From positions 1 to 42,819 of the forward strand of contig JAGCLA010000008.1 in the NCBI GenBank assembly GCA_017647225.1: 42,819 bases of DNA, written 5' to 3'. The first letter of the stretch is position 1. Each line of letters starts with the position of its first letter. Under the pieces are notes generated by a model. It had not been told where the DNA came from. It saw only the letters and a list, made by a program, of their open reading frames with translations, and searched no databases. Shown piece by piece: positions 11,472 to 39,170 of the stretch. The position numbers and the translations under genes are program-made. This DNA is from Bacteroidaceae bacterium (lineage in GTDB: Bacteria > Bacteroidota > Bacteroidia > Bacteroidales > Bacteroidaceae).

Positions 11472-11519
11472 GAGAAACTAATAATTCGCAAGGGTAATGG
11501 GGTTTCTCGTTGCCCTTGC
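11472..11519 (+). other. Interlocked inverted repeats (candidate RNA pseudoknot)
   Basis: Two perfect 7-bp inverted repeats are interleaved: GAGAAAC (11472-11478) pairs with GTTTCTC (11502-11508), and GCAAGGG (11488-11494) pairs with CCCTTGC (11513-11519). The order 1-2-1'-2' means the RNA can form an H-type pseudoknot or switch between two hairpins. The second stem is followed by TTGATTTT and then by the ribosome site of the Cys-rich gene at 11528-11533, so either transcription or translation of that gene could be controlled. Confidence 0.6.
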
Positions 11520-17013: not shown

Positions 17014-17042
17014 TTGACAATCTCGAATAACTATGGTATAAT
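17014..17042 (+). promoter_or_regulatory. Consensus promoter for HNH endonuclease
   Basis: TTGACA (17014-17019), 17-bp spacer ending TGG, TATAAT (17037-17042). It lies right after the SSB gene and 31 bp before the homing-endonuclease start, giving that gene its own transcript. Confidence 0.9.
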
Positions 17043-17073: not shown

Positions 17074-17991
17074 ATGGATTATTCGGGATTTGTCTTTGGA
17101 GATATTAAGGTTCTCAAAAGAGCAGACGGAGATTTGGAAAAGTGCAGAAAATCAAGGTTGGAAAAAGGACGAACAACTAACCCAATTTACACTTGCGAAT
17201 GTTTGCTTTGCGGAACTATATTTGATCGTGATATTTATGCGGTTAAGAAGAACAAATTTCAAAACTGCGGTTGTCAGACCTTGCAATACGATTTGAAAGG
17301 AAAGAAGTTCGGAAAACTAACTGCTATCGAACCTCTTGGTCTTAACAAACACAAGGAAATGACTTGGAGATGTGTATGTGATTGTGGTAATGAGCACATT
17401 ACAACAAGTTATAATTTAAGAAAAGAAATATCTACACAATGTTTGGAATGCTCTTTCAAGCAATGTGCAGAAAAAAACAGGAAATATTATTTAACTCACG
17501 AAAGACCCGAACCATCAAATAAAGTTATAAATAGCACAAAATATCCTCTTATTACAAAAAGATTAAGAGAAACACATATAAATATGAAAACAAGGTGCTA
17601 TAATCCAAACTCATTGTCTTATTATAGATATGGTGGCAGAGGTATAAAAATTTGCGATGAGTGGAAGGATAACTTTCTTGCTTTTGCTCTTTGGGCATTA
17701 GATAACGGTTATAGAGACGATTTAACCATTGATAGAATTGATAATGATGGTGATTATGAACCAAGCAACTGTCATTTTGTAACCTATACCGAACAAGCAA
17801 ACAACAGAATAACAAGCACTCGTTTGGAGTACAACGGAGAGGTTGATACAATGGCAAATTGGTCGAGAAGATTAAATATTCCTTATCACTTTATTCAGTA
17901 CAGAAAAGACAAAGGGATATGTATGGAGGATATAGTCAATGAGTTTAATAATGGTGCAAGATGCGAGAGAAAAAAAATCGAAACACAATAA
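17074..17991 (+). CDS. HNH homing endonuclease with zinc ribbons and AP2-like repeats
   Basis: A 305-aa protein, start chosen at ATG 17074 after AAGGAG at 17060-17065. N-terminal CECLLCGTIF...NCGC knuckle (about residues 43-70), an AP2-like DNA-binding repeat (GKKFGKLTAIEPLG and W-C-CDCGN, about 76-110), a third Cys pair, then an HNH core (RCYNPN...YGGRGI...TIDRIDNDGDYEPSNCHFVT, about 170-245). Such free-standing endonucleases cut near their insertion site and spread between phages. It has its own promoter and overlaps the ERCC4-nuclease gene by 53 bp, consistent with insertion upstream of it. Confidence 0.8.
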   Translation: MDYSGFVFGDIKVLKRADGDLEKCRKSRLEKGRTTNPIYTCECLLCGTIFDRDIYAVKKNKFQNCGCQTLQYDLKGKKFGKLTAIEPLGLNKHKEMTWRCVCDCGNEHITTSYNLRKEISTQCLECSFKQCAEKNRKYYLTHERPEPSNKVINSTKYPLITKRLRETHINMKTRCYNPNSLSYYRYGGRGIKICDEWKDNFLAFALWALDNGYRDDLTIDRIDNDGDYEPSNCHFVTYTEQANNRITSTRLEYNGEVDTMANWSRRLNIPYHFIQYRKDKGICMEDIVNEFNNGARCERKKIETQ

Positions 17992-18424
17992 CATCGAGGA
18001 CTATTGCCGAGAACACAACATACCCATTGTGAGAAAAATGCTTGAGGTTGGAGATTACAGACTTGCTACCATAAACAACAAGGGGCAGATAGAGTACATA
18101 AACAACAGAGCACTTGACACCAAGGCTCTCGGCGTTCTTGAGCTTGCAAAGGACTTGTACCAAGACAAGAAATCGTTCAACAAGAAGTACCGCAAATGCT
18201 ACCAGCAAGGCATAGAACTTTATGTGTTAGTGGAGCAAGAGATAAAGTCGCTAACTGACATATTATCGTGGAGTTCACCGCATAGCAAGATAAGTGGCAA
18301 GATGTTGTATGATATGATTGACCGAGTGCGAAAGAGTTACGGAGTGAAATTCGTGTTCTGTCGCAAAGAAAACGTGGCACAGACGATTATCAATATTTTA
18401 TGTGAAAGTGAGAAAGTGAGATGA
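17939..18424 (+). CDS. ERCC4-type nuclease domain protein
   Basis: A 161-aa protein from ATG 17939, preceded by GGAGG at 17925-17929. The N-terminus has VQDAREKK (about residues 6-13) and the EVGDYRLA motif (about 36-43), the first acidic positions of an ERCC4/XPF-type nuclease, followed by KALGVLELAKDLYQDKKSF and a helical C-terminus. Likely to act on branched or flapped DNA in phage recombination. Its reading frame begins inside the HNH gene. Confidence 0.65.
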   Translation: MSLIMVQDAREKKSKHNNIEDYCREHNIPIVRKMLEVGDYRLATINNKGQIEYINNRALDTKALGVLELAKDLYQDKKSFNKKYRKCYQQGIELYVLVEQEIKSLTDILSWSSPHSKISGKMLYDMIDRVRKSYGVKFVFCRKENVAQTIINILCESEKVR

Positions 18425-18690
18425 CATACGAAGAAGCATTAGATTGGTGCGAACAGTTTATAGACAACCTTGTTTCAGCAAATGTTGACACTAAAAGGAG
18501 AACACTTGGACTTCAAGCAATGAAAAAATGCAAACAAGCCATTGAAAAGCAAATGCGCCGAAAGCCGATATATTGGAATAACAAAATGTATATATGTCCT
18601 AATTGCCACCGAGCAGAGTACATAAAGCAGAGAGATGGTCTTGATGTTTACTGTGGCGGTTGCGGTCAGTTGATAGATTGGAGCGAATAA
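18421..18690 (+). CDS. Zinc-ribbon protein
   Basis: An 89-aa protein with ATGA overlap to the previous stop. A helical N-terminal half is followed by CPNC and CGGC knuckles (about residues 59-62 and 78-81), the single zinc ribbon common in phage accessory genes. Function unknown. Confidence 0.7.
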   Translation: MTYEEALDWCEQFIDNLVSANVDTKRRTLGLQAMKKCKQAIEKQMRRKPIYWNNKMYICPNCHRAEYIKQRDGLDVYCGGCGQLIDWSE

Positions 18691-18847
18691 CACTCTCTCG
18701 CCTTCAACAACCCCCTTAAAATCGCATTAGAGGGTATAGGCGGTGTAGTTGTAGGGTAGGAAACAAATCGCCTTAAAACGAGTTTTTGGGGCATTTCCAA
18801 GCGCGTCTGATTTTTTCAAATATTTTCAACTTTTTTACTAAAACCTA
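18691..18847 (+). other. Non-coding spacer with short inverted repeats
   Basis: I see no gene here. CGCC/GGCG and CAAC/GTTG short complements and a CCCTT/GAGGG pair are scattered, but no strong terminator with a T-run is evident before the next promoter at 18848. Confidence 0.5.
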
Positions 18848-18876
18848 TTGACTTTATCCAAAAGGTGTGGTAGAAT
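18848..18876 (+). promoter_or_regulatory. Promoter of the replication operon / small RNA
   Basis: TTGACT (18848-18853), 17-bp spacer ending TGG, TAGAAT (18871-18876). Transcription should begin near 18883 and run through the folded element at 18896-18985 toward the replication genes. Confidence 0.85.
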
Positions 18877-18882
18877 AGGTAT

Positions 18883-18990
18883 GGTCGATATAGTATGACG
18901 GTGCTATCTCGGCATTAACTGAATATTATATTGACCAAGGGCGTATTGTATGCGAGTGCCGTCACACTCCGTACAGTACGCTTTTCAATT
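18883..18990 (+). ncRNA. Folded leader or small RNA with loop pseudoknot and terminator-like hairpin
   Basis: The segment downstream of the promoter holds a strong hairpin: 18941-18952 pairs with 18970-18981 (12 pairs, two G-T), a one-base bulge, then GAGTG (18954-18958) with CACTC (18965-18969), leaving the loop CCGTCA (18959-18964). TTTT follows at 18982-18985. The loop is perfectly complementary to TGACGG at 18896-18901, and the pairing extends to nine bases if the upper stem opens (18896-18904 with 18956-18964). The element can thus form a loop pseudoknot or an alternative antiterminator-like helix. It is either a leader controlling the replication operon or a terminated small RNA of about 100 nt. 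No RNA class is recognised. Confidence 0.65.
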
Positions 18991-19057
18991 TCAAAGAACA
19001 GAAAATGAAAAATAAGAAGAAAAACAAATTTAGGTTTTATGAAAAGGAGTTTCACTA

Positions 19058-19759
19058 ATGGCAGATAGAAGAATGTTTACTAAAAAGGTTTCCGATAGTG
19101 ATGCCTTCATTGAAATGTCCTCGGCGGCACAAGCGTTATATTTTCACTTAAACCAAGGTGCAGACGATGACGGGTTTAATAACCAAATACAGATCGCTAT
19201 GTTAAAAGCTCACGCAAGTCTTGACGATTTGAAAGTGCTTATGATGAAGAACTTTATTATTCGTTTTGACAGTGGAGTTATAGTTATTAAACATTGGAGA
19301 ATGCACAACACATTGAGAAAAGACCGATATACACCGACAAATTTCCAAGAAGAATTAAGCCTTTTGGGTATCAAGGAAAATGGTTCATATACGCTTGGTT
19401 GCCAAATGGTTGCCAATCGGTTGCCACAGGATAGTATAGGTAAGGATAGTATAGTAAAGGATAATAAAGAAAAAGAAAATAAAAAAGAAAAAACGCCGAG
19501 AGCAAAAAAAGAATTTGTACCGCCTACCTACGAAGAAGTGCTTGTATATGCGAAAAGCAGAGGTCGAGAGGATTTGGCACGAAAGTTTTTTGATTACTTT
19601 GATACAGGAGAATGGATAGACTCAAAGGGCAACAATGTGCGAAATTGGAAACAGAAGTTTATCACTTGGGAAAGCAACAATGAGAAAGGAGCAAACAATG
19701 GAGAAGTTAATGGCACTAATCAAACAGACAAAACCGAACTTATTGGAGAATATTGGTGA
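19058..19759 (+). CDS. Replisome organizer / DnaD-like replication initiator
   Basis: A 233-aa protein with AAAGGAG before the ATG. The N-terminal 110 residues have the winged-helix pattern of phage replisome organizers (DRRMFTKKVSDSDAFIEM, then SSAAQALYFHLNQGADDDGF, about residues 20-45). A lysine-rich linker follows, and the C-terminal region (VPPTYEEVLVYAKSRG, about 155-205) resembles DnaD/DnaB-like tails. It should bind the phage origin and, with the DnaC-like loader encoded next, bring the host helicase. The two genes overlap by 62 bp. Confidence 0.8.
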   Translation: MADRRMFTKKVSDSDAFIEMSSAAQALYFHLNQGADDDGFNNQIQIAMLKAHASLDDLKVLMMKNFIIRFDSGVIVIKHWRMHNTLRKDRYTPTNFQEELSLLGIKENGSYTLGCQMVANRLPQDSIGKDSIVKDNKEKENKKEKTPRAKKEFVPPTYEEVLVYAKSRGREDLARKFFDYFDTGEWIDSKGNNVRNWKQKFITWESNNEKGANNGEVNGTNQTDKTELIGEYW

Positions 19760-20504
19760 GTATAACCACGAAAAGTTCTTGCAAGACCAAGCAGACCGAG
19801 AAAATGCGGAAGAAGGAAACCTCAAGGGGATAGATTGTCCGAAGTGCAAAAATAGGGGTCATATATCCATTGTTAAAGACGGAGAGTTAATGTGGAAAAT
19901 GTGCGAATGTATGGGCGCGAGAAAATCACTTGAGCAGATCGAAAAGAGTGGACTTAAATCCTTGCTTGATGAATGTACCTTTGAGAATTACGAAGCAACG
20001 GAACAATGGCAGAAACACGCATTATCGTTGGCACAAAACTATCTTGAATATGGCGAGAATATGTGGCTTTTTTTCGGAGGACAAAGCGGAGCAGGCAAGA
20101 CTTTTCTATGTACCGCAGTTGCAGGTGAATTGCTAAAGCGAAATAATGCCGTTAAGTATATGATGTGGGATAGCGAAAGTAAGGCACTAAAGTCACTTGT
20201 CAACGATGCTTACGAATATCAACGCAGAATGGACGAATTAAAGTCAGTTAAAGTCCTTTACATTGACGATTTCCTCAAGGTGCAACGAGGTCAGCAACCG
20301 ACACCTGCCGACATTAACTTGGCTTTTGAGATTATCAACCATCGTGATGTCAAAAACTTACGCACTATCATTTCAACAGAACGAAGCATTGATGATATTA
20401 TTTCGCTTGACGAAGCTCTTGGCGGTAGAATTAACAGAAGGTCGAGAGGGTATCAAATGAATATCGCTTATGACAAAAACAAGAATTTTAGATTGAGAAA
20501 GTAG
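19698..20504 (+). CDS. dnaC-like: DnaC-like AAA+ helicase loader
   Basis: A 268-aa protein from ATG 19698 (AAGGAG at 19686-19691). A CPKCKNRG...CEC zinc knuckle (about residues 38-60) precedes the AAA+ core: Walker A GGQSGAGKTF (about 130-139), Walker B VLYIDDF (about 185-191) and a sensor segment near residues 220-250. It loads the host replicative helicase at sites set by the replisome organizer. Ends in TAG. Confidence 0.85.
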   Translation: MEKLMALIKQTKPNLLENIGEYNHEKFLQDQADRENAEEGNLKGIDCPKCKNRGHISIVKDGELMWKMCECMGARKSLEQIEKSGLKSLLDECTFENYEATEQWQKHALSLAQNYLEYGENMWLFFGGQSGAGKTFLCTAVAGELLKRNNAVKYMMWDSESKALKSLVNDAYEYQRRMDELKSVKVLYIDDFLKVQRGQQPTPADINLAFEIINHRDVKNLRTIISTERSIDDIISLDEALGGRINRRSRGYQMNIAYDKNKNFRLRK

Positions 20505-20511
20505 GAGAGAT

Positions 20512-21111
20512 ATGGAGCAGATAGATATATTGGATGAAACTATATGGAAACCTATTGTTGACTATGAGGGGTTATATGTAGTCAACAGATGCGGAGATGT
20601 TTATTCTATACCGAGAAAAATATGGAACGGAAAGTCATTTTTTAATTACAAAGGCAAGAAAATTCATTGTGTCCTAAACCACAAAGGTTATCCTTGCGTT
20701 TACTTATATAAAAACGGAAAAGACCACTATTGTTCAGTACACAGATTGGTTGCTATGGCTTTTATTCCAAACCCAAACAATTATCTTCAAGTTAATCACA
20801 TAAACGGCATAAAGACAGACAACAGAGTTGAAAACTTGGAGTGGTGTACCAACCAACAAAACCAAATACACGCTTGGAAAATGGGGTTGCAAAAAGTGAG
20901 TGGCAAAGCGGGCAGACCTAAAAGGGCGGTATTGCAAATAGAACCAAAAACAAAAAATATTATAGCAGAATACCCTTCAATAAGTCTTGCTGCACAAAAT
21001 GTTGGGTGCAAATCTCCAAGTCTTATAAGTGAATGTTGTAAAAAAAAATACGGAAGAAAAACAATAAAAGGTTATGAATGGAAATATAAGGAGGTGATAG
21101 CAAATGAATAG
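20512..21111 (+). CDS. NUMOD4 / HNH homing endonuclease
   Basis: A 199-aa protein with NUMOD4 (WKPIVDYEGLYVV, about residues 12-24), an HNH core (HRLVAMAFIPN...VNHINGIKTDNRVENLEWCT, about 78-112) and a NUMOD1-like tail (ISLAAQNVGC, about 156-165). It is a mobile endonuclease. It ends TAG, overlapping the first codons of the methyltransferase (ATGAATAG), and so sits exactly at the 5' end of that gene. Confidence 0.85.
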   Translation: MEQIDILDETIWKPIVDYEGLYVVNRCGDVYSIPRKIWNGKSFFNYKGKKIHCVLNHKGYPCVYLYKNGKDHYCSVHRLVAMAFIPNPNNYLQVNHINGIKTDNRVENLEWCTNQQNQIHAWKMGLQKVSGKAGRPKRAVLQIEPKTKNIIAEYPSISLAAQNVGCKSPSLISECCKKKYGRKTIKGYEWKYKEVIANE

Positions 21112-22780
21112 TCAGATCAGTATTTTTGACGGCTCAATGAAGTATGTAAATGACAAGCCTTTAAGATTGATTGAGCTATTCGGTTAGGGCGGCTATGGTT
21201 CACAAGCTCTTGCCCTAAAGTATATGGGTTATCCATTTGAGCATTGGAAATTAGCAGAATGGGCGGTCAAGAGCATACAAGCCTACAAGGATATGCACTT
21301 TCCCAATGATAACACAGATTACAGTTATGGAATGTCATTTGATAATGTGATTGACTACCTATTTGAACGTGGAATTTCGGCAGACTACAACAAACCTATG
21401 ACGAGAGAACAGATAAAGAGAATGGGTGAGATCAAGTGCCGTACAGTTTACAACAACATCAAAGCGACACACAACCTTGTTTCAGTTTGTAATGTCAAAG
21501 CAAAGGACTTGCATATAACCCATACTGACCGATTTACTTACTTGCTTACTTACTCGTTCCCTTGTCAAGACCTTTCAAGTGCGGGATTGTCAAAGGGTAT
21601 GGCTAAAGGCAGCGGAACACGAAGCGGTTTGTTGTGGGAGATAGAAAGAATACTTAAAGAGTGTGATGAACTTCCGCAAGTGCTTTTAATGGAGAATGTT
21701 CCCGAAGTCATAGGGCAAAAAAATAAAGACTCATTTGGGGATTGGATTGCTTTTCTTGATAGTATGGGTTACAAGTCAAAGTGGGAGATATTGAACGGAA
21801 CAGACTTTGAGATACCGCAGAACCGAAAGAGATGTTTTATGGTTAGTGTTCTTGGAGATTACTATTATGATTTTCCGCAGAAACTTGGCTGCACATTAAG
21901 ACTTAAAGATTTGCTTGAAAAGAATGTATCTGAAGAATACTATTTGAGCGATAATATCTTAAATTACTTTATTAAGCACACAAAAGAGAGCGAAGAAAAA
22001 GGCAACGGATTTAGATTTGAACCGACAAACTGGGATTGCATCGCAAAGTGTGTTACAACAAGAGCAGGCGGTAGAATGGACGATAACTTTATTGATGATA
22101 AGGTACATTCAGTTGTGAAACTGCCGCACGGATATTTCCCTGGCAGTATAGAAAGAAACGCTGAAGCATCTCCCACAATAGACACGGGAGTTGGAAATTG
22201 GCACACTCTTATTGGGGAAGAAACAATATCACATTGTGAACAGTTAGGCTACATAGAAAAAGACGGATTTAACGAAATGACCGGAAGAGTCTATGGCACT
22301 AACGGAGCAAGTCCCACGGTGCGAACATTCTGCGGTGGCGGTCAAGAAGATAACTCTATAAAAATGTTTCAATATCCAAGAGGGGCAAACAAGGGTGGAA
22401 TCCGTGATGTAGAGGCTTGTCCAACGATAACAACTTGCTCTTGGGAAAATAACTGTATGTTGGTAGAACCCCTTGCACTTAACGATACAGACCATCTGCG
22501 AGTATTTGATGCTTACCATGGAAGAGAAATAGACAATTCAAAATGTGGAACTATATGCACAAATTCTGGGTATAGACAAGCTGGGGTTTTTTGGGTTCAA
22601 AATAGTGATATGAGAGTTCGCAAACTTACCCCAAGAGAATGTTTTAGACTTATGGGAGTCAAAGACGAGGACTACGAAAGAGTTGCACATAATCAATCAA
22701 AGTCAAGCCTCTATCATTGTGCGGGCGATAGTATCGTGGTTAATGTGCTAATGGCGATATTCAAAGAATTATTTATGTAA
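21104..22780 (+). pseudogene. C5-cytosine DNA methyltransferase interrupted by TAG
   Basis: From ATG 21104 (AAGGAGG 12 bp upstream) the frame is open except for codon 28, a TAG at 21185-21187 inside the SAM-binding motif I (ELFG-stop-GGYGSQALAL). The rest, about 530 residues in the same frame, has the family motifs: PCQ near residue 152, ENVPEV near 196, IPQNRKRCF near 237, a variable target-recognition part, RKLTPRECFRLMG near 505 and AGDSIVV near 540. Initiation at the downstream ATG 21224 would omit motif I and be inactive. Other genes here use TAG as a plain stop, so it is probably a broken, toxic-mutation or variable gene. Suppression is less likely. Confidence 0.85.
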
Positions 22781-22792
22781 AGGAGAAATAAA

Positions 22793-23182
22793 ATGCAAAC
22801 CGAAAAGCAGAGGGAAAGATTGGTGGGGTTGTTGAAAGAAACTTTTGAATACACAAGGGGAACTTGCATAGACTTTGACGAAGCCGCAGAGATAAATGCC
22901 GACTACCTAATGTCAAACAATGTCGTGGTGTTGCCGTGTAAGGTGGGTCATACAGTATATTCATTTAGTACGGATTTTGGAGTAGTTTTGCCCTATCTTG
23001 TAGGAACTCTTAATATTGGCTATATGGGTAAAAGCGGAGTGTATTACAGTTACGAAGCGAATTGTAGCGATCCCGAAACAGATGAACTTTTGGACGAGAT
23101 TGACTTTGAAAGTGAGGATATTGGCAAAACCGTGTTCCTGTCGAGAGAAGAAGCCGAGAATGCGCTAAAGGAGAGAAAGTAA
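22793..23182 (+). CDS. Conserved phage hypothetical, 129 aa
   Basis: A 129-aa acidic protein. A helical start (TEKQRERLVGLLKE) is followed by a beta-rich part with LPCKVGHTVYSF (about residues 47-58) and a C-terminus (DIGKTVFLSREEAENAL, about 109-125). I recall this VGDTVY...IGKTVFLTREEAE pattern in many Bacillota phage proteins, all hypothetical. It follows the methyltransferase with a good ribosome site. Confidence 0.7.
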   Translation: MQTEKQRERLVGLLKETFEYTRGTCIDFDEAAEINADYLMSNNVVVLPCKVGHTVYSFSTDFGVVLPYLVGTLNIGYMGKSGVYYSYEANCSDPETDELLDEIDFESEDIGKTVFLSREEAENALKERK

Positions 23183-23184
23183 AA

Positions 23185-23442
23185 ATGAGTTATATTATTG
23201 CACAAAAAGAAGTAGTAACGAGAAAAGAACAAAAGTGTTTTGGGTGTGCGAGAACTTTTCCAAGAAATACGAAAATGCTCCGTGAAGCCGTAAAAGACGA
23301 TATTATATTTACTGCTTATATTTGCAAGACTTGTCAAGAAGTTATGAATGAAAGAAGCGGTGATGAGTTCTGTGAGGGCGATTTGTACGAATTAGCCGTT
23401 GAATATGAAAACGATTTAATGGAGAAAGCAAATGGAACTTAA
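23185..23442 (+). CDS. Small zinc-finger protein
   Basis: An 85-aa protein with CFGC and CKTC knuckles (about residues 18-21 and 48-51), a four-cysteine zinc site like those of phage recombination or transcription accessory proteins, and an acidic helical tail. Function unknown. Overlaps the next gene by 11 bp. Confidence 0.7.
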   Translation: MSYIIAQKEVVTRKEQKCFGCARTFPRNTKMLREAVKDDIIFTAYICKTCQEVMNERSGDEFCEGDLYELAVEYENDLMEKANGT

Positions 23443-23644
23443 AGTGATAACCTACGAAGAAAGCCGTTTGAGGTATTTTAAGTCGCAAAGAGACAGACAA
23501 GTGTCACGATATGAGCGCATCAAAAATTCAAGGGCGTTTAAGGAGTTGCCACCTTTTGAACAGAACTTGATGTTGAGCGAGATCGGTGAAAGAATTAGTT
23601 TTTGTAATGATGTTGTTGAAATGTTGGAGGATAAAGCGAAATGA
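23432..23644 (+). CDS. 70-aa helical protein
   Basis: Almost entirely charged helix with no motif. The start overlaps the zinc-finger gene and the stop overlaps the ASCH gene by 4 bp (ATGA), which supports it as a real coupled gene. Function unknown. Confidence 0.6.
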   Translation: MELKVITYEESRLRYFKSQRDRQVSRYERIKNSRAFKELPPFEQNLMLSEIGERISFCNDVVEMLEDKAK

Positions 23645-24249
23645 AATGTGTAATGCTATCAATAAGACCTAAATACTGTGAACTCATAGCGAATGGAAAA
23701 AAGACCGTAGAAGTCCGCAAAACAAAGCCAAAGATTGATGTGCCGTTTAAGTGCTATATTTACTGCACTACGGATAAAAGGCTTTTGAGAAAGTTTGACA
23801 AAGGGGAACGGATAGACGATGAACACTTTTTTGATGAACACGTTTTTGTGCGGCAAAACACTTGGATAAGAGGGCATTTTAATCCCAATAAAAAAGTCAT
23901 AGGCGAGTTTGTGTGCGATGCTATCTTCCCAATGTCAGTATGGTATTCAAATCCGAATGACAGATTGAGCCATAGAGAATATCCGTTTACTTGTTTGACA
24001 GATAAAGAGATTATGGATTATCTCGGCAACGGTGTAGAGGGTTACGGCTGGCACATCTCCGAACTTAAAATCTACGACAATCCGAAGAAGTTGAGCGAGT
24101 TTTTCTCGGTAAAAGAAGCAGGTGGATATGAGGAGTTCAAAGTAATAAATAGACCTCCACAATCGTGGTTATACTGTGAAAAGATAGATGCAAAGCCTTT
24201 GGTAGAGGGCAAGACAATAACAATTCCAAAGTGGGAGTACAAAGAATGA
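23641..24249 (+). CDS. ASCH / PUA-like domain protein
   Basis: A 202-aa protein with the ASCH start CVMLSIRPKYCELIANGKKT (about residues 3-22) and KTVEVRKTKP (about 21-30), the conserved patch of this nucleic-acid-binding PUA-like fold. The middle (GEFVCDAIFP) and WHISELKIYD fit the rest of the domain. ASCH domains bind RNA or modified nucleotides. In phages the role is unknown. Confidence 0.8.
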   Translation: MKCVMLSIRPKYCELIANGKKTVEVRKTKPKIDVPFKCYIYCTTDKRLLRKFDKGERIDDEHFFDEHVFVRQNTWIRGHFNPNKKVIGEFVCDAIFPMSVWYSNPNDRLSHREYPFTCLTDKEIMDYLGNGVEGYGWHISELKIYDNPKKLSEFFSVKEAGGYEEFKVINRPPQSWLYCEKIDAKPLVEGKTITIPKWEYKE

Positions 24250-24377
24250 GATACAATATGCCATTTGACTTATACGAAGATTGGAAACAGTTGTATTTTG
24301 AAAAAGAGTTGCTTGAAAACATAGTAAAGGAATTAAAGGAAAAACCGAATGAAAATCACACAGTGCGAAATGATTGA
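24246..24377 (+). CDS. 43-aa hypothetical protein
   Basis: Starts on an ATGA overlap with the ASCH stop and encodes a helical, charged 43-aa protein. It overlaps the next gene by 29 bp in another frame. No motif, and kept with modest confidence because the coupling is typical of this operon. Confidence 0.45.
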   Translation: MRYNMPFDLYEDWKQLYFEKELLENIVKELKEKPNENHTVRND

Positions 24378-24618
24378 GGACTACATTAACGAATATGGTT
24401 CAATAAGTGCGCTTGAGGCATTAAGGGATTTGGGCGTGTACCGCTTGGCGAACCGAATTTGTCAGTTAAAGAAGCAAGGCTACAAAATCAAAAGCGAAAT
24501 GGTATCGGTTGCAACTCGGAATGGTGGCAGAACACATATTGCGAGGTATAGTTGGGCAGACGATAATGTGAAATTTGACAGAAAGGAATGTGAGGGAGTA
24601 TGTCTTGCGAACACATAA
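24349..24618 (+). CDS. Winged-HTH DNA-binding protein
   Basis: An 89-aa protein with a phage winged-helix pattern: EMIEDYINEYGSISALEALR (about residues 7-26) as helices one and two, a recognition helix DLGVYRLANRICQLKKQG (about 27-44) and a wing ending GRTHIARYSW (about 59-68). It is probably an operon regulator or DNA-organising protein. Overlaps the next gene by 19 bp. Confidence 0.75.
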   Translation: MKITQCEMIEDYINEYGSISALEALRDLGVYRLANRICQLKKQGYKIKSEMVSVATRNGGRTHIARYSWADDNVKFDRKECEGVCLANT

Positions 24619-24875
24619 TAGGTTTGATATACAAGACGGATTGTACTGAATTTGTTACCCTCGATGGACTTAAAAAGCATATTGCTGAACAAAAGGAACT
24701 CAAAGAGGAATTTGCAAAAGACGAGGTATATAGCCAATTTAACTTTAGGATTTCGGTATGGGAACTTTCGGAGTATGGAGATAGAAGAAAAACAACAGAC
24801 TTACACCGCTTCAACCATTGTTGCGATTGTGGTGCAAGGATAGATTGGAAAGGGATAAAGGATGGAAAATATTGA
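24600..24875 (+). CDS. 91-aa protein with CxCG zinc-binding end
   Basis: A helical/charged protein that begins MSCEH and ends with HCCDCGARIDWKG (about residues 72-84), a half zinc-knuckle like that of the zinc-ribbon proteins at 18421 and 13543. Overlaps both neighbours. Function unknown. Confidence 0.65.
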   Translation: MSCEHIIGLIYKTDCTEFVTLDGLKKHIAEQKELKEEFAKDEVYSQFNFRISVWELSEYGDRRKTTDLHRFNHCCDCGARIDWKGIKDGKY

Positions 24876-25533
24876 AACATTAGTATTTGCCGAGAACGGA
24901 TTTCCTCTTGAGGATAGGCTTGGCAAGGTTATGGAAACTCTTGGCGCGAAATTTTACGAACTGAACGATAGATACTTGGCAGAATACAACACGATGATTG
25001 AAAAAGGCGCAAAGAAACCAGTTCTCAAGACGATTCAGCCATATACAATCAAATGCGAACTCTACAAGGCATTGTCACGGTTTAAGTCGATTGACAACTC
25101 GGTAGCAAACAACTTGACAGAAGAACAGATCATGGCGATTTTTTCTGACTTCCTTGAACTTGTATCGTGGCTAAATGAATATGGCACGTTTATTCCCTCA
25201 AAGCAGATTTTTTCCGCATTTTCGGGAATCACGCCCACCGCCTACACATATCTTATGACAGACGGTGATAGTGAGCAGAAAGAGGCAATTTTAGCCGTTG
25301 AGAACTTCCTTGTCGATATGAATATGGAAGCCGCATCACAAGGTATGGCAAAAGAGCGCACAACAGAATTTCGTATGAAAGCAAGAGGTAGCGCAGGTCA
25401 CGGCATTAGAACCGCCACAATAGTTGATGATGTTGTCGATAGCGCAAAAGATGTTATGTCGCAAGCCGATTACAACAGAATGTTAGTTGGCATTGTTGAA
25501 AAAGATTTGATCGAAGCAAGTAAGGGGAATTGA
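24862..25533 (+). CDS. Putative small-terminase-like protein
   Basis: A 223-aa mostly helical protein. Its middle and C-terminal parts (IFSAFSGITPTAYTYLM...EAASQGMAKERTTEFRMKA, about residues 115-175) resemble the HTH-plus-helical layout of phage small terminases, which choose the DNA to be packaged. It is far from the large terminase at 36940, so this is tentative. It could also be another DNA-binding early protein. Confidence 0.35.
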   Translation: MENIETLVFAENGFPLEDRLGKVMETLGAKFYELNDRYLAEYNTMIEKGAKKPVLKTIQPYTIKCELYKALSRFKSIDNSVANNLTEEQIMAIFSDFLELVSWLNEYGTFIPSKQIFSAFSGITPTAYTYLMTDGDSEQKEAILAVENFLVDMNMEAASQGMAKERTTEFRMKARGSAGHGIRTATIVDDVVDSAKDVMSQADYNRMLVGIVEKDLIEASKGN

Positions 25534-25536
25534 TAT

Positions 25537-25728
25537 ATGACAATAAACACACATAACTACGATAAGTTAAAAAGAGATACGCTTGATAGAGTTGAAGAAA
25601 TTTTGGAACTTGGAAGAATGTCAAAAGGAGTAGATATTGAAATTCACTTGGCGTTAGAAGAAGTACCCTATGTATCATACACAATAACCGAAGCAACGAT
25701 ATTTGAAAAAGAGGAGAAGAAAGGATAA
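25537..25728 (+). CDS. 63-aa hypothetical protein
   Basis: A charged helical N-terminus and a beta-strand-like C-terminus (YVSYTITEATIF). No motif. Just after the small-terminase-like gene with 3 bp between. Function unknown. Confidence 0.6.
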   Translation: MTINTHNYDKLKRDTLDRVEEILELGRMSKGVDIEIHLALEEVPYVSYTITEATIFEKEEKKG

Positions 25729-25736
25729 GTGAGATT

Positions 25737-26018
25737 ATGGCAGAATATAACAGGATTGAGGATATTGTCAAAAAACAAGCAAACGATTACATTCAAAGAA
25801 TACTTATTGAGATCAACCGATTTCAAGTTCACGGAGAAACCAAAACCCCCAATATTGTTATGTCAAAAGACGTGTTCAATGTTCTACAAGCAGGTTTGGA
25901 AGGGGCATTGTATGTAAACTACGAATATCGAACAGTTTGTGGTTGCGAGGTTGACATCATTTCGGGAAATAAAAAACTTTATGTTGGATTTAATTTGTTG
26001 GAAGGAGAAACAGAATGA
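25737..26018 (+). CDS. 93-aa conserved phage hypothetical
   Basis: ATG 25737. A helical start and a beta-rich core with NIVMSKDVFNVLQ (about residues 39-51) and a single CGCEV motif near 69. Its stop overlaps the next ATG by 4 bp (ATGA). No recognised function. Confidence 0.65.
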   Translation: MAEYNRIEDIVKKQANDYIQRILIEINRFQVHGETKTPNIVMSKDVFNVLQAGLEGALYVNYEYRTVCGCEVDIISGNKKLYVGFNLLEGETE

Positions 26019-26179
26019 GCAAAGCCGCGCAGGAACGATACGATAGGGAGAATACGGTATTCGTAGGACTTAAACTCAACAGAAAGACAGATGCCGACAT
26101 TATCGCACTTTTGCAGAAATCCGATAACAAGCAAGGTACGATAAAAAATATTTTGAGAAACTTTTTGAAAAACACTTGA
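26015..26179 (+). CDS. 54-aa ribbon-helix-helix-like protein
   Basis: A small basic protein (ERYDRENTVFVGLKLNRKTD, then DIIALLQKSDNKQGTIKNIL) with the strand-helix-helix pattern of small phage DNA-binding proteins of the Arc/MetJ type, which I recall in this YD.EN.VFVGLKLN form. The -35 box of the next promoter overlaps its stop codon. Confidence 0.65.
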   Translation: MSKAAQERYDRENTVFVGLKLNRKTDADIIALLQKSDNKQGTIKNILRNFLKNT

Positions 26180-26204
26180 CAATATGTTAAACCTATGATA
26201 TAAT
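26176..26204 (+). promoter_or_regulatory. Consensus promoter
   Basis: TTGACA (26176-26181), 17-bp spacer ending TGA, TATAAT (26199-26204). It gives a transcript beginning near 26211 for the resolvase operon. Confidence 0.9.
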
Positions 26205-26210
26205 GAGTAC

Positions 26211-26354
26211 AACAAAGGTGCTACGAAGTCGAGGCTATGAGGCAAGGACTATCAAGAATGGTTGATTAAGTAATAGCTTTTGAAAAATTGCGAGGCAGTA
26301 GTTAAATGGAGTTTGAAGAACAGCCTTAAATCATTATGTTTTAGGAGGCAGATG
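26211..26354 (+). other. Leader before resolvase operon, with 10-codon ORF
   Basis: About 140 nt between the promoter and the first gene. A tiny ORF (26237-26269, 10 codons) is partly enclosed by AGGCTAT (26232-26238) and ATAGCTT (26273-26279), followed by TTTTG, so it could act as an attenuator. The ORF has no strong ribosome site, and its role is speculative. Confidence 0.35.
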
Positions 26355-26543
26355 ATGTATATACTTTATTACAAGCAGTTGCATATAGTTAAAGAGCCTA
26401 TGCGACAGAATTGCACTTGTCAATCTTATCGAAATAAACAAATCGCTATGTGCGAGGAAGAAAAACCTTTGCAAGATTATATTGATAAGCAAAAAGATAA
26501 GAGCCGTTGGTTCATTGAAAAACAACCGAGCAAGGAGGCATAA
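26355..26543 (+). CDS. 62-aa basic hypothetical protein
   Basis: ATG 26355 lies six bases after AGGAGG (an ATG at 26352 is too close). The product is basic, with C-x-C (residues about 18-20), and a charged C-terminus. No motif. It is followed immediately by the resolvase (26545). Confidence 0.55.
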   Translation: MYILYYKQLHIVKEPMRQNCTCQSYRNKQIAMCEEEKPLQDYIDKQKDKSRWFIEKQPSKEA

Positions 26544-26544
26544 T

Positions 26545-27141
26545 ATGTATTACATCTATCAACGAGTATCTTGCGACAAGCAAAGTCTAATTCGTCAAGA
26601 GGGTGCTATTGGAGATTACTGCAAAGCAAACAACATTGAAGTTCCCGAAGAAAACATTTTTAGTGATGTGATTACGGGTAAGACTATCAAGCGAGAGAAC
26701 TATCAGCAGATGAAAGCAAAGTTGCAAAAAGAAGATGTCCTCATTATGCTTGACCTTGACAGACTTGGAAGAAATTGGGATTTAATTAAGAAAGAGTGGA
26801 AAGAACTCACAGACAAAGGTGTTTACATAATCATCGTAAATTGCCCTTTGATAAATGTTATGCCCGACAGTAATGGCACAGTATCTATTGACAAGCGACT
26901 TATTCAAGAAATGATGTTTACTCTGCTCTGCTATGTATCGCAACGAGAGGTGGAGAAAATAAGCACGAGAACAAAGGAAAGTTTGAAAGCAAAGCGTGAA
27001 CAAGGTATTCGTCTTGGAAAGCCACCAAAGCTCTCCCCCGAACAAAGAGCCGAGATAAAGTCCTTAAAAGGCATCAAGAGTTGCAAGGAATTGGGCGAGA
27101 TGTACGGAGTCAATGCGAGTACGATTTCAAGGATAAAGTGA
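26545..27141 (+). CDS. Small serine recombinase (resolvase/invertase type)
   Basis: A 198-aa protein from ATG 26545 (AGGAGG upstream). N-terminal catalytic domain: YQRVSCDKQ with the nucleophile Ser at residue 9, LIRQEGAIGDYCKANN, and MLDLDRLGRN (about residues 68-77) with the catalytic Arg. The C-terminus (SPEQRAEIKSLKGIKSCKEL then YGVNASTISRI, about 165-197) is an HTH. It is far too short for a large serine integrase, so it is a resolvase, invertase or transposon-type recombinase. No inverted segment is evident nearby, so its target is unknown. Confidence 0.85.
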   Translation: MYYIYQRVSCDKQSLIRQEGAIGDYCKANNIEVPEENIFSDVITGKTIKRENYQQMKAKLQKEDVLIMLDLDRLGRNWDLIKKEWKELTDKGVYIIIVNCPLINVMPDSNGTVSIDKRLIQEMMFTLLCYVSQREVEKISTRTKESLKAKREQGIRLGKPPKLSPEQRAEIKSLKGIKSCKELGEMYGVNASTISRIK

Positions 27142-27158
27142 GAAAGTGAGGTTGTGAT

Positions 27159-27434
27159 ATGCAAAAATGTGTGAACGATGAGTGCGAATATTTTAAGCAA
27201 TACGGAGAATGTTCATCTGTTTGTGTGAAAAATGGATTTAACAAGATTATCACCAACTTTGACCGAATAAAGAATATGACTATCGAGGAAATGGCAGAAA
27301 AAGCCGTGTATGAACTTCGCATTTTTATAATGGCAGAACCGTCTTATATGAGTTTGATTGATGGAACTTGCTATTCAACCAAAGAATTGGCAATTACTCA
27401 CAATAAAGAGTTTCTTGGAGCAGAGGTGAAATAA
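27159..27434 (+). CDS. Cys-rich 91-aa phage hypothetical
   Basis: The N-terminus has four cysteines (CVNDEC and CSSVC, about residues 4-9 and 18-22), perhaps a metal site. A NFDRIKNMTIEEMAEKAVYE segment (about 33-52) is a motif I recall in Bacillota phage hypothetical proteins. The stop overlaps the next ATG. Confidence 0.65.
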   Translation: MQKCVNDECEYFKQYGECSSVCVKNGFNKIITNFDRIKNMTIEEMAEKAVYELRIFIMAEPSYMSLIDGTCYSTKELAITHNKEFLGAEVK

Positions 27435-27895
27435 TGGCACGAACACCAACGATAATACCGCAAGAAGTCAAAGAGCAAATGTGCCGAGATTACAAGAGAG
27501 GATTGTCCTTGAGGGAGTTGAGCGCGGTTTATGGCAGTAGTGTTTCAATGGTACACAGCATCGTGCGAAACAGTTGCGAGAAAAAGCGAGGGCGACCTTG
27601 TGGCACAGATAAGCGAGTAGTCGAAGCTATGGTGATTGACTATCAAAACGGACTTTCGGTTAAGCGGTTGTCGAAAAAATATCACTTTGCAGAAAATTCG
27701 GTTTACATCGTGTTGCGAAAAAATGGCGATGTGGTAAAGCAAAATTCGAGGGAACTCATAAAGCAAATTCAAGCCGATCTAAAATGCGGAGAATTATCAC
27801 AAAGCGATATTGCAAAAAAATATGGCGTTTCAAGACAGTATATTTTTCAAGTTAAGCAGAAAATGGGAGGATATCACGATGAAGGAACACATTGA
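27434..27895 (+). CDS. Three-HTH repeat DNA-binding protein
   Basis: A 153-aa basic protein containing three similar helix-turn-helix units: about residues 10-45 (LRELSAVYGSSVSMVHSIV), 62-95 (LSVKRLSKKYHFAENSVYIV) and 112-140 (SQSDIAKKYGVSRQYIFQV). Each has the resolvase/homeodomain-like A-x3-YGVS pattern, so it may bind an extended repeated site. Basic linkers (KKRGRPCG) lie between. Might organise DNA or regulate the early genes. Overlaps the next gene by 17 bp. Confidence 0.75.
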   Translation: MARTPTIIPQEVKEQMCRDYKRGLSLRELSAVYGSSVSMVHSIVRNSCEKKRGRPCGTDKRVVEAMVIDYQNGLSVKRLSKKYHFAENSVYIVLRKNGDVVKQNSRELIKQIQADLKCGELSQSDIAKKYGVSRQYIFQVKQKMGGYHDEGTH

Positions 27896-28178
27896 CGAAA
27901 TGACGAAAGTCTTGGTTGACTACACGGAGAAAAATCACATTATGGCAAGCCACGTTATTTTGGAGGACTATGCCGAGCAACTTTACAACGCAGGCTACCG
28001 CAAGCAAGAGTGGATCAGCGTGGAGGAGAGGTTGCCCGAACAACATGGACGATACATGGCATACCGCGCTGATGGTTCTGTCTGTTTTGTCTTTTTCGCG
28101 GGCATTAGGTTTCCGCCCTATGTAACCCATTGGATGCCCCTGCCCGAAGCTCCTAAAATGAAAGGCGGTGCGGAATGA
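27879..28178 (+). CDS. DUF551-containing protein
   Basis: A 99-aa protein from ATG 27879 (GGGAGG upstream). A helical N-terminus is followed by the DUF551 pattern: WISVEERLPEQ (about residues 48-58), YMAYRADGSV and THWMPLPEAP (about 85-94). Very common in phages, and function is unknown. Confidence 0.8.
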   Translation: MKEHIDEMTKVLVDYTEKNHIMASHVILEDYAEQLYNAGYRKQEWISVEERLPEQHGRYMAYRADGSVCFVFFAGIRFPPYVTHWMPLPEAPKMKGGAE

Positions 28179-28483
28179 AAATTCTCAAACAATGTCGCGG
28201 CGATTGCCTTGAAGGAATGGGCATTAAGAATCCACATTGGCTTGTGGCTGACCACGATATAAATCCAAGAGTAGGCGACTTAGTCCATTGCGTAAGGGAT
28301 CAAAACTTTCTTGATCAGTATGTGAAAGTCGTGTTGTCATACGATGAAGAAACGGGAAAATATACCGTAGGAAGTAGATATGCAGACCCGTCAAGAGATT
28401 TTACGTTTGTTGCCGAAAAGATATTCGGGGTGGTCATATTGATGTTTGACGGCGATAAAAGACAGATTTACGAAAGGCTGTGA
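28175..28483 (+). CDS. 102-aa hypothetical protein
   Basis: A beta-rich protein with PHWLVADHDINPRVGDLVHC (about residues 20-39), a region reminiscent of the shared fold of LexA-type S24 and head-tail-adapter proteins, but without a visible catalytic dyad. It overlaps the DUF551 stop by 4 bp. Function unknown. Confidence 0.6.
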   Translation: MKILKQCRGDCLEGMGIKNPHWLVADHDINPRVGDLVHCVRDQNFLDQYVKVVLSYDEETGKYTVGSRYADPSRDFTFVAEKIFGVVILMFDGDKRQIYERL

Positions 28484-28488
28484 GTGAT

Positions 28489-28809
28489 ATGACAAAGAAT
28501 GAAGTGTACGCACTTGAAACCGAAGTCTGCAAAAATATCGAGCGCATCAAGCGAGAACAGGCCGAGTATGTCAAGGGAGTTGAGGCTGGAATCGAGTTGA
28601 TGGCCAAGGCGGTTCGCGCACACCTTGCAAAAGAGGAAGAAACCGCAGCAAAGAAAGAAAAAGAGATAAAAAACTGTAAAAACTGCAGACACGTTTGCAA
28701 AAAAGACGGTGCTTGTAAAGAATGTATAGCCTCATACGATATAAGGACGAACACGACCAGTACGCCCTCGAATTGGGAACCCATTCCCGAACCGCCGAAA
28801 GGAGAATGA
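28489..28809 (+). CDS. Helical protein with zinc knuckle
   Basis: From ATG 28489 (a GTG at 28480 is an alternative) the product has a long charged helix (about residues 1-65), then CKNCRHVCKKDGACKEC (about 65-80), a cysteine-rich zinc-like motif, and a proline-rich tail. No function is recognised. Confidence 0.6.
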   Translation: MTKNEVYALETEVCKNIERIKREQAEYVKGVEAGIELMAKAVRAHLAKEEETAAKKEKEIKNCKNCRHVCKKDGACKECIASYDIRTNTTSTPSNWEPIPEPPKGE

Positions 28810-28810
28810 T

Positions 28811-29524
28811 ATGCCACGATATATTGATGCGGATAAAATTCACAAACTTGTTGATGAAAAGGTAGCGGAGGGCAAAGACGGTTGGGCAAAAGGAGTACCT
28901 TATGAATGGGGGTATGCTTTAACTGTGATTGATATGCAACCCACCGCCGATGTCGTACCGAGGGCGGAGGTTGCAAATGTAAAAGCATGGATTTTTGAAA
29001 ATTCACCGTTTGAAATGCTTGATATAGCATTTAAGAGATTGTTCCCGAAGGTAAAATACACGGCATTTTTTGAGCCGAATATAAGGGACGGTGAACACGG
29101 AGAAAAGGTGTGCGGATTGACCGACTTTGACGATGAAGGAAATATAACTATTTTTGTTGATACAGATTTAAGCATAAATGATGCCACAGAAATCTTTGCA
29201 CACGAATTGGCTCATGCTGGTGTTGGTGTGGAACATGGGCATGATGAAATGTGGGAAAAAGCCTTTGATGATTTGTTTAATGAATATAATCGAGTCGGTG
29301 AGGAAATGTTTGGAAGTAATATTGATGCTCCAAAAGGAGATAGTTATTCAAACGCACTTTCCGAGATCGACAAAATCAAATGCAATTTTGCGAGGGAGAT
29401 TTTTGATGAGATTGAAAGCAAAAAGATGTTCCTTATAGACCACGCAGGCAATATGGGTGTTGTTGTATTATTCAAATATATTGCCGAACTCAAAAAGAAA
29501 TACACGGAGGATAAAAACGGATGA
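28811..29524 (+). CDS. Phage protein with inserted zincin metallopeptidase domain
   Basis: A 237-aa protein in three parts. Residues 1-58 (MPRYIDADKIHKLV...PTADVVPRAEV) and about 185-237 (ending ELKKKYTE) match the two ends of a widespread small phage family. Between them lies a domain with the metallopeptidase motif EIFAHELAHAGVGVEHGHDE (about residues 130-149), which holds HExxH and a third His. It looks as if a zincin domain was inserted into the phage protein. A substrate is not predictable. Confidence 0.7.
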   Translation: MPRYIDADKIHKLVDEKVAEGKDGWAKGVPYEWGYALTVIDMQPTADVVPRAEVANVKAWIFENSPFEMLDIAFKRLFPKVKYTAFFEPNIRDGEHGEKVCGLTDFDDEGNITIFVDTDLSINDATEIFAHELAHAGVGVEHGHDEMWEKAFDDLFNEYNRVGEEMFGSNIDAPKGDSYSNALSEIDKIKCNFAREIFDEIESKKMFLIDHAGNMGVVVLFKYIAELKKKYTEDKNG

Positions 29525-29613
29525 AGTCTATTTTGCCCAAATCGTGGTACTCTCTTCCAAAGCGGCAAAAGAACCCATGTAGAAAACAAAAAAATCACTT
29601 GACAATGTATTGA
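29521..29613 (+). CDS. Short ILPKSWYSLPKR peptide, possibly truncated
   Basis: A 30-aa ORF overlapping the previous stop (ATGA). It starts KSILPKSWYSLPKRQK, a start I recall for a longer family of phage hypothetical proteins, and then ends early, so it may be a remnant. It overlaps the downstream promoter. Confidence 0.4.
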   Translation: MKSILPKSWYSLPKRQKNPCRKQKNHLTMY

Positions 29614-29627
29614 GAATGTGATAAACT
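29599..29627 (+). promoter_or_regulatory. Promoter for small membrane protein
   Basis: TTGACA (29599-29604), 17-bp spacer ending TGA, TAAACT (29622-29627). The gene at 29668 follows 40 bp later. Confidence 0.75.
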
Positions 29628-29667
29628 ATATGTGGTATGAAATAAAATCACATTAGAGAGGTATAAT

Positions 29668-29814
29668 ATGTTTCGCAAAATCATAAATACTATATTTAAA
29701 ACTATATTTAAAATAGTGTTTGGCGTTATCAAGAACATACTATTGATCGCATTAGCTTTTATTGTCGCACTTCTCATATTGTGGCTTTTGACAGAAAGTG
29801 GTTCAATGATATAA
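29668..29814 (+). CDS. 48-aa single-pass membrane peptide
   Basis: Basic and hydrophobic N-terminus (FRKIINTIFKTIFK) then a membrane segment (about residues 24-42). AGAGAGG lies 8 bases before the ATG. A monocistronic unit with its own promoter, so it may be an early toxic or superinfection-exclusion peptide, but this is inference. Confidence 0.7.
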   Translation: MFRKIINTIFKTIFKIVFGVIKNILLIALAFIVALLILWLLTESGSMI

Positions 29815-30133
29815 TTTCACATTAGCATTAGGGCATTATGTAGTATTTCTATATAGTGTCCTTTTTCTTTGCAACAGTTCAAAGTGCCGACATACCCCCT
29901 ATGGCTACAACAGATTGGATATGACACACACCCCTTGCCGTGATACTTTTTCACATTAGTCTGCAACAGTTCGCACCCGACACACACCCCCAAACCCTGC
30001 AACAGTTTCACATAGGCACACCCCCCCTTATAGAGAAACCCCGAAAAAGAAGCCGACACTTTTAATTTGTGAAATTTTTAACAATGGCCAAAAATCCCGA
30101 CTTTGTTAAAAAAATGTCAAAGTATGGCAAATT
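29815..30133 (+). repeat. Non-coding repeat block (candidate iterons)
   Basis: No gene is seen here. CAACAG words start at 29872, 29908, 29964 and 30000 (spacings 36, 56 and 36), and each is followed after 8-11 bases by GACAtACCCCC, GACACACACCCC, GACACACACCCCC or GCACACCCCCCC. A second repeat, TTTCACATTAG or near, is at 29815, 29949 and 30006, with a variant at 29647. The plus strand is C-rich. The array could be a replication origin, a packaging site or an operator cluster. Confidence 0.55.
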
Positions 30134-33760: not shown

Positions 33761-33836
33761 GTGCCATTAACTCAACAGGTAGAGTCTCCAGCTCATAACT
33801 GGATAGTCCAAGGTTCGACTCCTTGATGGCGCACCA
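33761..33836 (+). tRNA. tRNA-Met or tRNA-Ile2 (anticodon CAT)
   Basis: Acceptor GTGCCAT pairs with ATGGCGC, the anticodon stem CCAG/CTGG encloses CTCATAA, the T arm contains TTCGACT and CCA is encoded. CAT may be elongator Met or, if lysidine-modified, Ile2. The pairing at the acceptor end does not show the initiator mismatch. Confidence 0.9.
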
Positions 33837-33915
33837 CGTTGCTTCGGACGGCGACGACACTCCAATTTCTTTTCTTTACGGTTTCGGCATTGCGAAAGTG
33901 ATGTCGAGATCGCAT
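33837..33915 (+). other. Spacer between first and second tRNA
   Basis: 79 bp with no gene. GCGAAAGTG occurs at 33891, about 25 bp before the Lys tRNA, and the same nine bases lie about 30 bp before the Met tRNA at 33739. CGTTGC (33837-33842) pairs with GCGACG (33851-33856). The elements may help processing of the tRNA transcript. Confidence 0.35.
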
Positions 33916-33991
33916 GAGCGGATAGTTCAGATGGTAGAACAGTAGACTTTTAATCTACTTGTCGGGGGTTCGATTCCCTTTTCGCTCACCA
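33916..33991 (+). tRNA. tRNA-Lys (anticodon TTT)
   Basis: Acceptor GAGCGGA with TTCGCTC, anticodon arm GTAGA-CTTTTAA-TCTAC, T arm with TTCGATT, and encoded CCA. 76 nt. Confidence 0.93.
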
Positions 33992-33995
33992 ATAA

Positions 33996-34072
33996 GGCAC
34001 TATCGTCTAACAGGTTAGGACGCGACCCTTTCAAGGTTGAAACCGCGAGTTCAATTCTCCGTAGTGCTACCA
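33996..34072 (+). tRNA. tRNA-Glu (anticodon TTC)
   Basis: Acceptor GGCACTA with TAGTGCT, anticodon loop CTTTCAA between GACC and GGTT, T arm with TTCAATT, and encoded CCA. 77 nt. Confidence 0.92.
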
Positions 34073-34076
34073 AAAT

Positions 34077-34151
34077 GCAGAAGTGGCTCAATGGCAGAGC
34101 AAATGACTTGTAATCATTCGGTTGTAGGTTCGACTCCTATCTTCTGCTCCA
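34077..34151 (+). tRNA. tRNA-Thr (anticodon TGT)
   Basis: Acceptor GCAGAAG with CTTCTGC, anticodon arm AATGA-CTTGTAA-TCATT, T arm with TTCGACT, and encoded CCA. 75 nt. Confidence 0.92.
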
Positions 34152-34154
34152 TAA

Positions 34155-34229
34155 TGGGGTATGGCCAAGCGGCAAGGCACAGGACTTTGACTCCTGTATT
34201 CGGTGGTTCAAATCCACCTACCCCAGCCA
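34155..34229 (+). tRNA. tRNA-Gln (anticodon TTG)
   Basis: Acceptor TGGGGTA with TACCCCA, anticodon arm CAGGA-CTTTGAC-TCCTG, T arm GGTGG-TTCAAAT-CCACC, discriminator G and encoded CCA. 75 nt, last of the five-tRNA cluster, 20 bp before the baseplate gene. Confidence 0.92.
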
Positions 34230-39102: not shown

Positions 39103-39131
39103 GAGAGTGTGTAAACACATGATTTGTTAAG

Positions 39132-39170
39132 GTGCGTAGATACCATTTAAGCGGTATTTATGCACTTTTT
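39132..39170 (+). terminator. Strong terminator just before portal
   Basis: GTGCGTAGATACC (39132-39144) pairs with GGTATTTATGCAC (39153-39165), 13 pairs including two G-T, loop ATTTAAGC, and TTTTT at 39166-39170. It ends the transcript from 38898 just 13 bp before the portal ribosome site, so portal needs read-through, antitermination or an internal promoter. Confidence 0.85.

Follow-up and report, generated by a model that had tools for sequence, protein, structure and literature searches.

A predicted two-hairpin RNA with a promoter-like start ahead of the replication genes of a phage

Introduction

The OOP RNA of phage lambda lies beside gene O. Morons are accessory cassettes with their own promoter and terminator, missing where relatives keep the flanking gene, and in the layout of the ZTP riboswitch the loop of a 3′ hairpin pairs back with an internal part of the 5′ hairpin. 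Phage small RNAs have many functions according to the available part of a review (PMC12197685), in which pO, the promoter of OOP, is described as important for phage DNA replication. HK022 put, in the accessible portion of another account (PMC9378689), consists of two stem-loops directly after an early promoter and acts in cis on phage transcription. A put-type antiterminator is further marked by contact with the beta′ zinc-binding domain.

The element described here, at 18883–18990 of the window (the whole stretch of 42,819 nucleotides that was analysed), resembles phage-encoded small RNAs such as lambda OOP and PreS in being a predicted short RNA in the early/replication region. However, OOP is antisense to cII, whereas the present element is co-directional with a replication gene, and a search of the phage for an antisense target gave none. 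It shares with HK022 put, as far as the partial source describes it, two predicted stem-loops just after a promoter-like site, but is about 105 nt long, has a T-rich tail after hairpin 2 and is followed by no listed plus-strand terminator before 29830; the two are likened by layout only. The loop of the 3′ hairpin could pair back into the 5′ hairpin, as in transcriptional riboswitches with a pseudoknot at a terminator (ZTP, fluoride); unlike in those RNAs, the pairing loop is the terminator's own, there is no Rfam match and no alternative nested fold has a similar energy. GP20-a, a structured phage RNA, has a match in the same genome (RF02991; 40650–40740, 49.1 bits, just 3′ of the portal gene), while the element fits no family. 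With its strong fold and promoter-like start beside replication genes, the element is a concrete candidate for control of phage replication by RNA; the phage itself is represented here solely by a metagenome-type bin.

Results

The element is predicted to fold as two hairpins on the plus strand

The element comprises the following features.

18848–18876, plus strand: sigma-A type promoter-like site TTGACT-17-TAGAAT with TG ahead of the −10 hexamer (10/12 consensus match)
18883–18936, plus strand: hairpin 1, with a 14-bp outer stem GGTC...GACC (12 Watson-Crick and 2 G.U pairs) and a weak inner stem; −19.6 kcal/mol alone
18896–18901, plus strand: TGACGG, complement of the hairpin-2 loop in the sequence, in the upper part of hairpin 1
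18937–18985, plus strand: hairpin 2, terminator-like, with a 17-bp core (18941–18981) with one bulge, extended by AAGG/TTTT; −27.3 kcal/mol alone
18959–18964, plus strand: loop CCGTCA of hairpin 2, unpaired in the fold prediction
18982–18991, plus strand: T-rich tail TTTTCAATTT, tail score 3.44

The predicted fold of 18883–18990 has an energy of −49.2 kcal/mol (z −7.08), equalled by none of 200 shuffles, and the z-score was −6.41 when 181 nt were folded. After correction for G+C composition, its energy was the lowest among 8543 folding windows, each 113 nt long and drawn from both strands (8542 spaced on a 10-base grid and one set on the element itself). The raw energy is not unique, as a window of −53.2 kcal/mol (55% G+C, coding-like) lies within 400 nt upstream of the gene at one relative locus (L032). 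The stretch upstream of the promoter, 18691–18850, gave no fold signal (z 0.14). The first-pass annotation had described a 17-bp hairpin with a T-tail, which is borne out by hairpin 2 with its single bulged C at 18953, but had overlooked hairpin 1.

G.U pairs make up 8 of the 42 pairs in the whole fold and, the bulge aside, all four non-Watson-Crick paired positions of the main stems are G.U on the plus strand (hairpin 1 and the hairpin-2 core have two each). The plus strand folds to about −49 kcal/mol and the complementary strand, where G.U become A.C, to only −28.0 kcal/mol. This pattern speaks for selection on a plus-strand RNA. The G.U positions are as expected for RNA rather than DNA as the folding molecule. 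No family of Rfam 15 matched the element at the gathering threshold, nor at E up to 5 over 18700–19100. Together with the promoter-like site and the fold, this supports the earlier proposal of a structured RNA of no recognised class ahead of the replication genes.

Promoter-like site and T-rich tail

From the promoter-like site, a transcript start is predicted at about 18883, which coincides with the first base pair of the two-hairpin fold. By eye, the site looks like the 12-of-12 phage promoters at 13181, 17014, 26176 and 32219 (minus strand), and single-gene promoters are found elsewhere in the phage, for example at 17014 ahead of the HNH gene. The site had been annotated as a strong promoter; both hexamers, the 17-base spacing and the TG are present, but sites of this pattern class are no more frequent than expected by chance (8 against 8.3 expected in 17500–20500, and equally frequent in shuffled sequence). 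An own promoter directly before a structured RNA, as looked for in a small-RNA gene, is present as a sequence match only, from which we infer promoter function at 18848–18876.

The tail score of 3.44 exceeds that of 99.4% of plus-strand positions. Six other hairpin tails picked from the phage scored 2.61–4.40, three of them higher than the tail of hairpin 2, in which the longest T run is four, giving a strong hairpin with a moderate tail. Hairpin 2 was not listed by the terminator pattern scan, which requires an uninterrupted stem and a loop of 3–8. The pattern scan gave no plus-strand promoter-like site between 18990 and 19058, so transcripts of the replication genes, whether from the element's own or from an upstream promoter, probably pass hairpin 2. 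A leaky terminator at hairpin 2 would fit both this passage and a tail score in the middle of the range of phage tails; a strong one, in a block of genes that all run one way, would come at a cost to the phage, which was counted against a terminator. A terminated product of about 100 nt from this unit is plausible.

The hairpin-2 loop matches the upper part of hairpin 1

The perfect complementarity between the loop CCGTCA and an upstream TGACGG, reported in the first-pass annotation, is confirmed at 18959–18964 and 18896–18901. The two lie 57 nt apart (63 start to start) and not 40 bases as given there, and the suggested extension to nine bases can be formed, although with two G.U wobbles among the pairs. 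A random loop of equal composition would have a perfect 6-nt complement with a probability of 0.015 over 18883–18939 and 0.0055 over 18896–18923, and shuffling both partners gave a 6-nt complement in 132 of 20000 trials (0.0066); these figures are suggestive only, because the match was picked after the fact. Across the whole genome, the plus strand has TGACGG at 22 places and CCGTCA at 4.

A nested antiterminator helix reached −22.2 kcal/mol against −49.2 kcal/mol for the two hairpins, a cost of 27 kcal/mol in a calculation over nested folds. Folding of growing 5′ prefixes predicted a different, transient hairpin at 18920 and a complete hairpin 1 by 18936, retained in all longer prefixes tried, so that hairpin 1 is predicted to be fully formed before the loop of hairpin 2 exists. 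The nested antiterminator is not favoured and was rejected for its cost and this predicted order of folding. The two-state switch that had been proposed is unsupported, as no competing nested fold is of comparable stability. A kissing contact between hairpins 1 and 2 is possible and compatible with the energies; unpairing both TGACGG and the loop costs 4.8 kcal/mol and the bare 6-bp duplex contributes −7.8 kcal/mol before any loop penalty.

Neighbouring genes and the same locus in relatives

The element is flanked by the following genes and sites.

14561, upstream: RecE-like exonuclease
About 17068 (start by eye), upstream: HNH
17939, upstream: ERCC4-type nuclease (phrog_3490, E 2e-21; slightly below the Pfam cut-off)
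18421–18690, upstream neighbour: Zn-ribbon-like protein (below the Pfam cut-off)
19045–19049, plus strand: ribosome site AGGAG of the DnaD-like gene, from the sequence
19058–19759, plus strand: DnaD-like helicase loader / replisome organiser, first gene downstream (phrog_5708, E 2e-51; phrog_8489, E 3.3e-51)
Further downstream: DnaC/IstB-like ATPase, HNH and C5 methylase

The gap upstream of the DnaD-like gene is 367 nt here and −55 to 99 nt in 63 of 63 distinct relative loci, measured to the nearest upstream frame of at least 40 codons with chance frames included, so that some true gaps may be longer. These loci were the best 80 of 115, less three with under 400 nt upstream and 14 duplicates. 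None of the 63 has space for a promoter-RNA block before the DnaD-like gene. As the gap is far shorter in all of them, the block looks inserted, an addition that sets this phage apart from the others in the comparison. The upstream neighbour of the gene varies among the relatives looked at, and an exact empty site was seen in none.

A 15-nt inverted repeat (87%; 18833–18847 and 19031–19045) flanks the promoter-RNA unit (18833–19045). It was considered as a pair of insertion-sequence-like ends and rejected, being taken as probably chance in A+T-rich DNA; visual inspection showed no target duplication. Tandem direct repeats around GGTTGCCA (three, at 19397, 19408 and 19419) and AGGATAGTATAG (two) lie within 19396–19457, inside the DnaD-like gene. 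By analogy with the Tuc2009 record, in which the homologous rep gene is annotated as containing the origin, these repeats are a likely replication origin, about 400 nt past the RNA.

Phage genome and host

The first 141 bases of the window (1–42819) are identical to the last 141, forming a terminal direct repeat, and genes for terminase, portal and tail-length proteins are present. In all likelihood the window is thus an entire phage genome of about 42.7 kb, either circular or assembled as a circle. It equals one contig of the bin. The bin is Bacteroidota-like, with 13 SusC/RagA matches, 8 of them over the cut-off (1 of 14 control genomes was over it). Shine-Dalgarno-like motifs stand at 33 of 45 hand-picked phage gene starts (mean 3.1 and maximum 10 at random positions), TTGACA-TATAAT promoters matching at 12 of 12 positions occur in the phage, and tblastn with the DnaD-like protein found matches in 129 phage records, of which 60 are named after Streptococcus, 39 after Lactococcus and 3 after Flavobacterium. 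Shine-Dalgarno use, sigma-A promoters and the DnaD-like relatives suggest a Firmicutes-type host and a phage that is probably misbinned. Against such a host, a DnaD-like match is present in 2 of 43 other genomes of the bin's genus (43% and 36% identity), and the terminase points to Porphyromonas and Rhizobium phages (21–22% identity). Viral contigs hold a single close relative of the terminase (88%, on a 12.8-kb contig, L105), whereas genome contigs hold none; the phage is rare in the searched collections.

Search for relatives of the RNA

By blastn, no stretch similar to the element was present in phage records at E up to 1, plasmids gave only three matches of 21–25 bases (E 1–3), and in its own genome the element is single copy. 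Among 101 related genomes, 69 gave matches with E up to 1; the window itself excepted, these were only pieces of at most about 42 bases (best E 0.0026). At 100 loci, apart from the own copy, blastn pieces were no longer than 28 bases and nhmmer gave E 0.26 or worse. Exact-pattern searches returned 0, 4 and 0 stretches from viral contigs and 9 from genome contigs, none titled as a Firmicutes organism.

A covariance model (R1) was built from the window and its own copy (L001), i.e. from one sequence. On the pattern loci its best match was 11.3 bits over 19 positions. With neighbouring proteins as bait, the ERCC4-like protein gave 0 relatives, HNH 7 and terminase 1 (viral contigs) or 0 (genome contigs), with no R1 match there, the 12.8-kb contig included. 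At E up to 1, R1 matched 0 of the other 200 genomes of a family sample, 0 of the other 392 of an order sample and 2 of the other 394 of a class sample (E 0.13 and 0.84 per genome), the three samples partly overlapping. The two class-sample matches were taken as chance, as both fall inside long reading frames and one is on the opposite strand. These genome searches say little, having covered the kin of the Bacteroidota-like bin, probably an unsuitable lineage. R1 found no match in 37 virus records (hand-picked from 81 viral-contig loci, mostly longer contigs), a result that is no proof as there was no positive control, only two weak, near-identical matches at E 2.1 in 84 loci, and none in four named phages. 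General literature searches, not specific to this phage, gave no report of this RNA among the matches listed. The absence of relatives is weak evidence, because the phage is rare and the searched genomes are kin of the Bacteroidota-like bin. While it remains a single copy, the element is a well-supported orphan that belongs to no class.

Discussion

The reading that we prefer, and to which we give an even chance of being correct, is an accessory, moron-like cassette of promoter, RNA and leaky terminator, yielding an RNA of about 100 nt and read-through into the replication genes. Seated between the Zn-ribbon-like gene (ending at 18690) and the DnaD-like gene (starting at 19058), the cassette would be transcribed by host RNA polymerase from about 18883 to give a two-hairpin RNA of about 100–110 nt. 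Hairpin 2 and its T-rich tail would serve as a leaky intrinsic terminator, with many transcripts stopping near 18985–18992 and the remainder continuing into the replication genes. The match between the loop and the 5′ part, if used, would be a kissing contact that packs hairpin 2 on hairpin 1, with no antiterminator. In a search for trans targets at 45 phage gene starts, 38% of 100 shuffled queries did as well as the best duplex of loop 2 and 4% as well as that of the upper part of hairpin 1, and sites off gene starts paired better (to −26.6 kcal/mol, against −23.2 and −23.4). A trans target within the phage was rejected, the duplexes at gene starts being unconvincing beside shuffles and other sites.

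Other functions can be proposed for the same fold. The location before a replication gene and a 6-nt loop complement at 0.5–1.5% chance would suit a regulated attenuator, in which the contact between loop and 5′ part, strengthened or prevented by some protein or ligand, sets read-through past hairpin 2; fluoride and ZTP riboswitches are known to have a pseudoknot next to the terminator. We regard it as unlikely, since no competing nested fold comes near the minimum (−22.2 against −49.2 kcal/mol), no Rfam family matched at E up to 5 over 18700–19100 and no relative was found in the searched sets. It is also quite improbable that the element is a phage leader RNA of a new class, whose terminator loop kisses the preceding hairpin in a contact tuned by a phage or host factor such as a replication protein; were this true, the contact would govern how much replication protein is made and so give the phage a kind of copy-number control. 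The element might also be nothing more than a structured leader at the 5′ end of the replication mRNA, which would protect or process the transcript with neither a stable small RNA nor a switch. This has parallels in the phage hairpins at 11488–11519 and 39129–39168, just before ribosome sites and with T-rich tails running into AAGGAG. At the present locus, however, the ribosome site (19045) lies about 60 nt past the stem, the folding energy is lower relative to base composition and there is an own promoter-like site, and this reading, too, appears rather doubtful.

As another possibility, the element would act as a processive antiterminator in the manner of HK022 put, EAR or conAn2, its hairpins binding their own polymerase and suppressing later termination. 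There are precedents: HK022 put is about 70 nt with two stem-loops, putL lying just past the early promoter (available part of PMC9378689), and RNA antiterminators exist in Gram-positive elements, as the accessible portions of PMC8955417 and PMC11658703 state. The T-rich tail after hairpin 2 argues against this, as does a scan of 19000–30000 that lists no plus-strand terminator-like site before 29830, although the scan misses bulged stems, and we hold it to be very unlikely. Least probable, and hardly to be expected, is a DNA element (protein-binding palindromes or origin-related) or the remains of a coding gene. The stems are palindromic, iteron-like direct repeats lie about 400 nt downstream within the DnaD-like gene, and an open frame of 54 codons (18894–19057) ends in TAATG overlapping the next start; yet the non-Watson-Crick positions of the main stems are all G.U on the plus strand, as for RNA. 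A coding gene at 18894–19057 was rejected, the frame lacking both a usual start and any counterpart among phages, PHROGs or viral contigs.

Beyond the preferred cassette, the phage carries further elements. A second promoter-hairpin-T-tail unit, counted in favour of the cassette, lies at 29788–29870, where a 12-of-12 promoter is followed by a 14-bp hairpin, with a possible terminated RNA of about 45–50 nt. At 26176–26354, a 12-of-12 promoter stands about 130 nt before AGGAGG (26343) and ATG (26352), leaving a long leader or RNA for which Rfam gave nothing at E up to 1. The hairpins at 11488–11519 and 39129–39168 are attenuator- or stabiliser-like, and a cluster of five tRNAs (Met, Lys, Glu, Thr and Gln) is found at 33761–34229.
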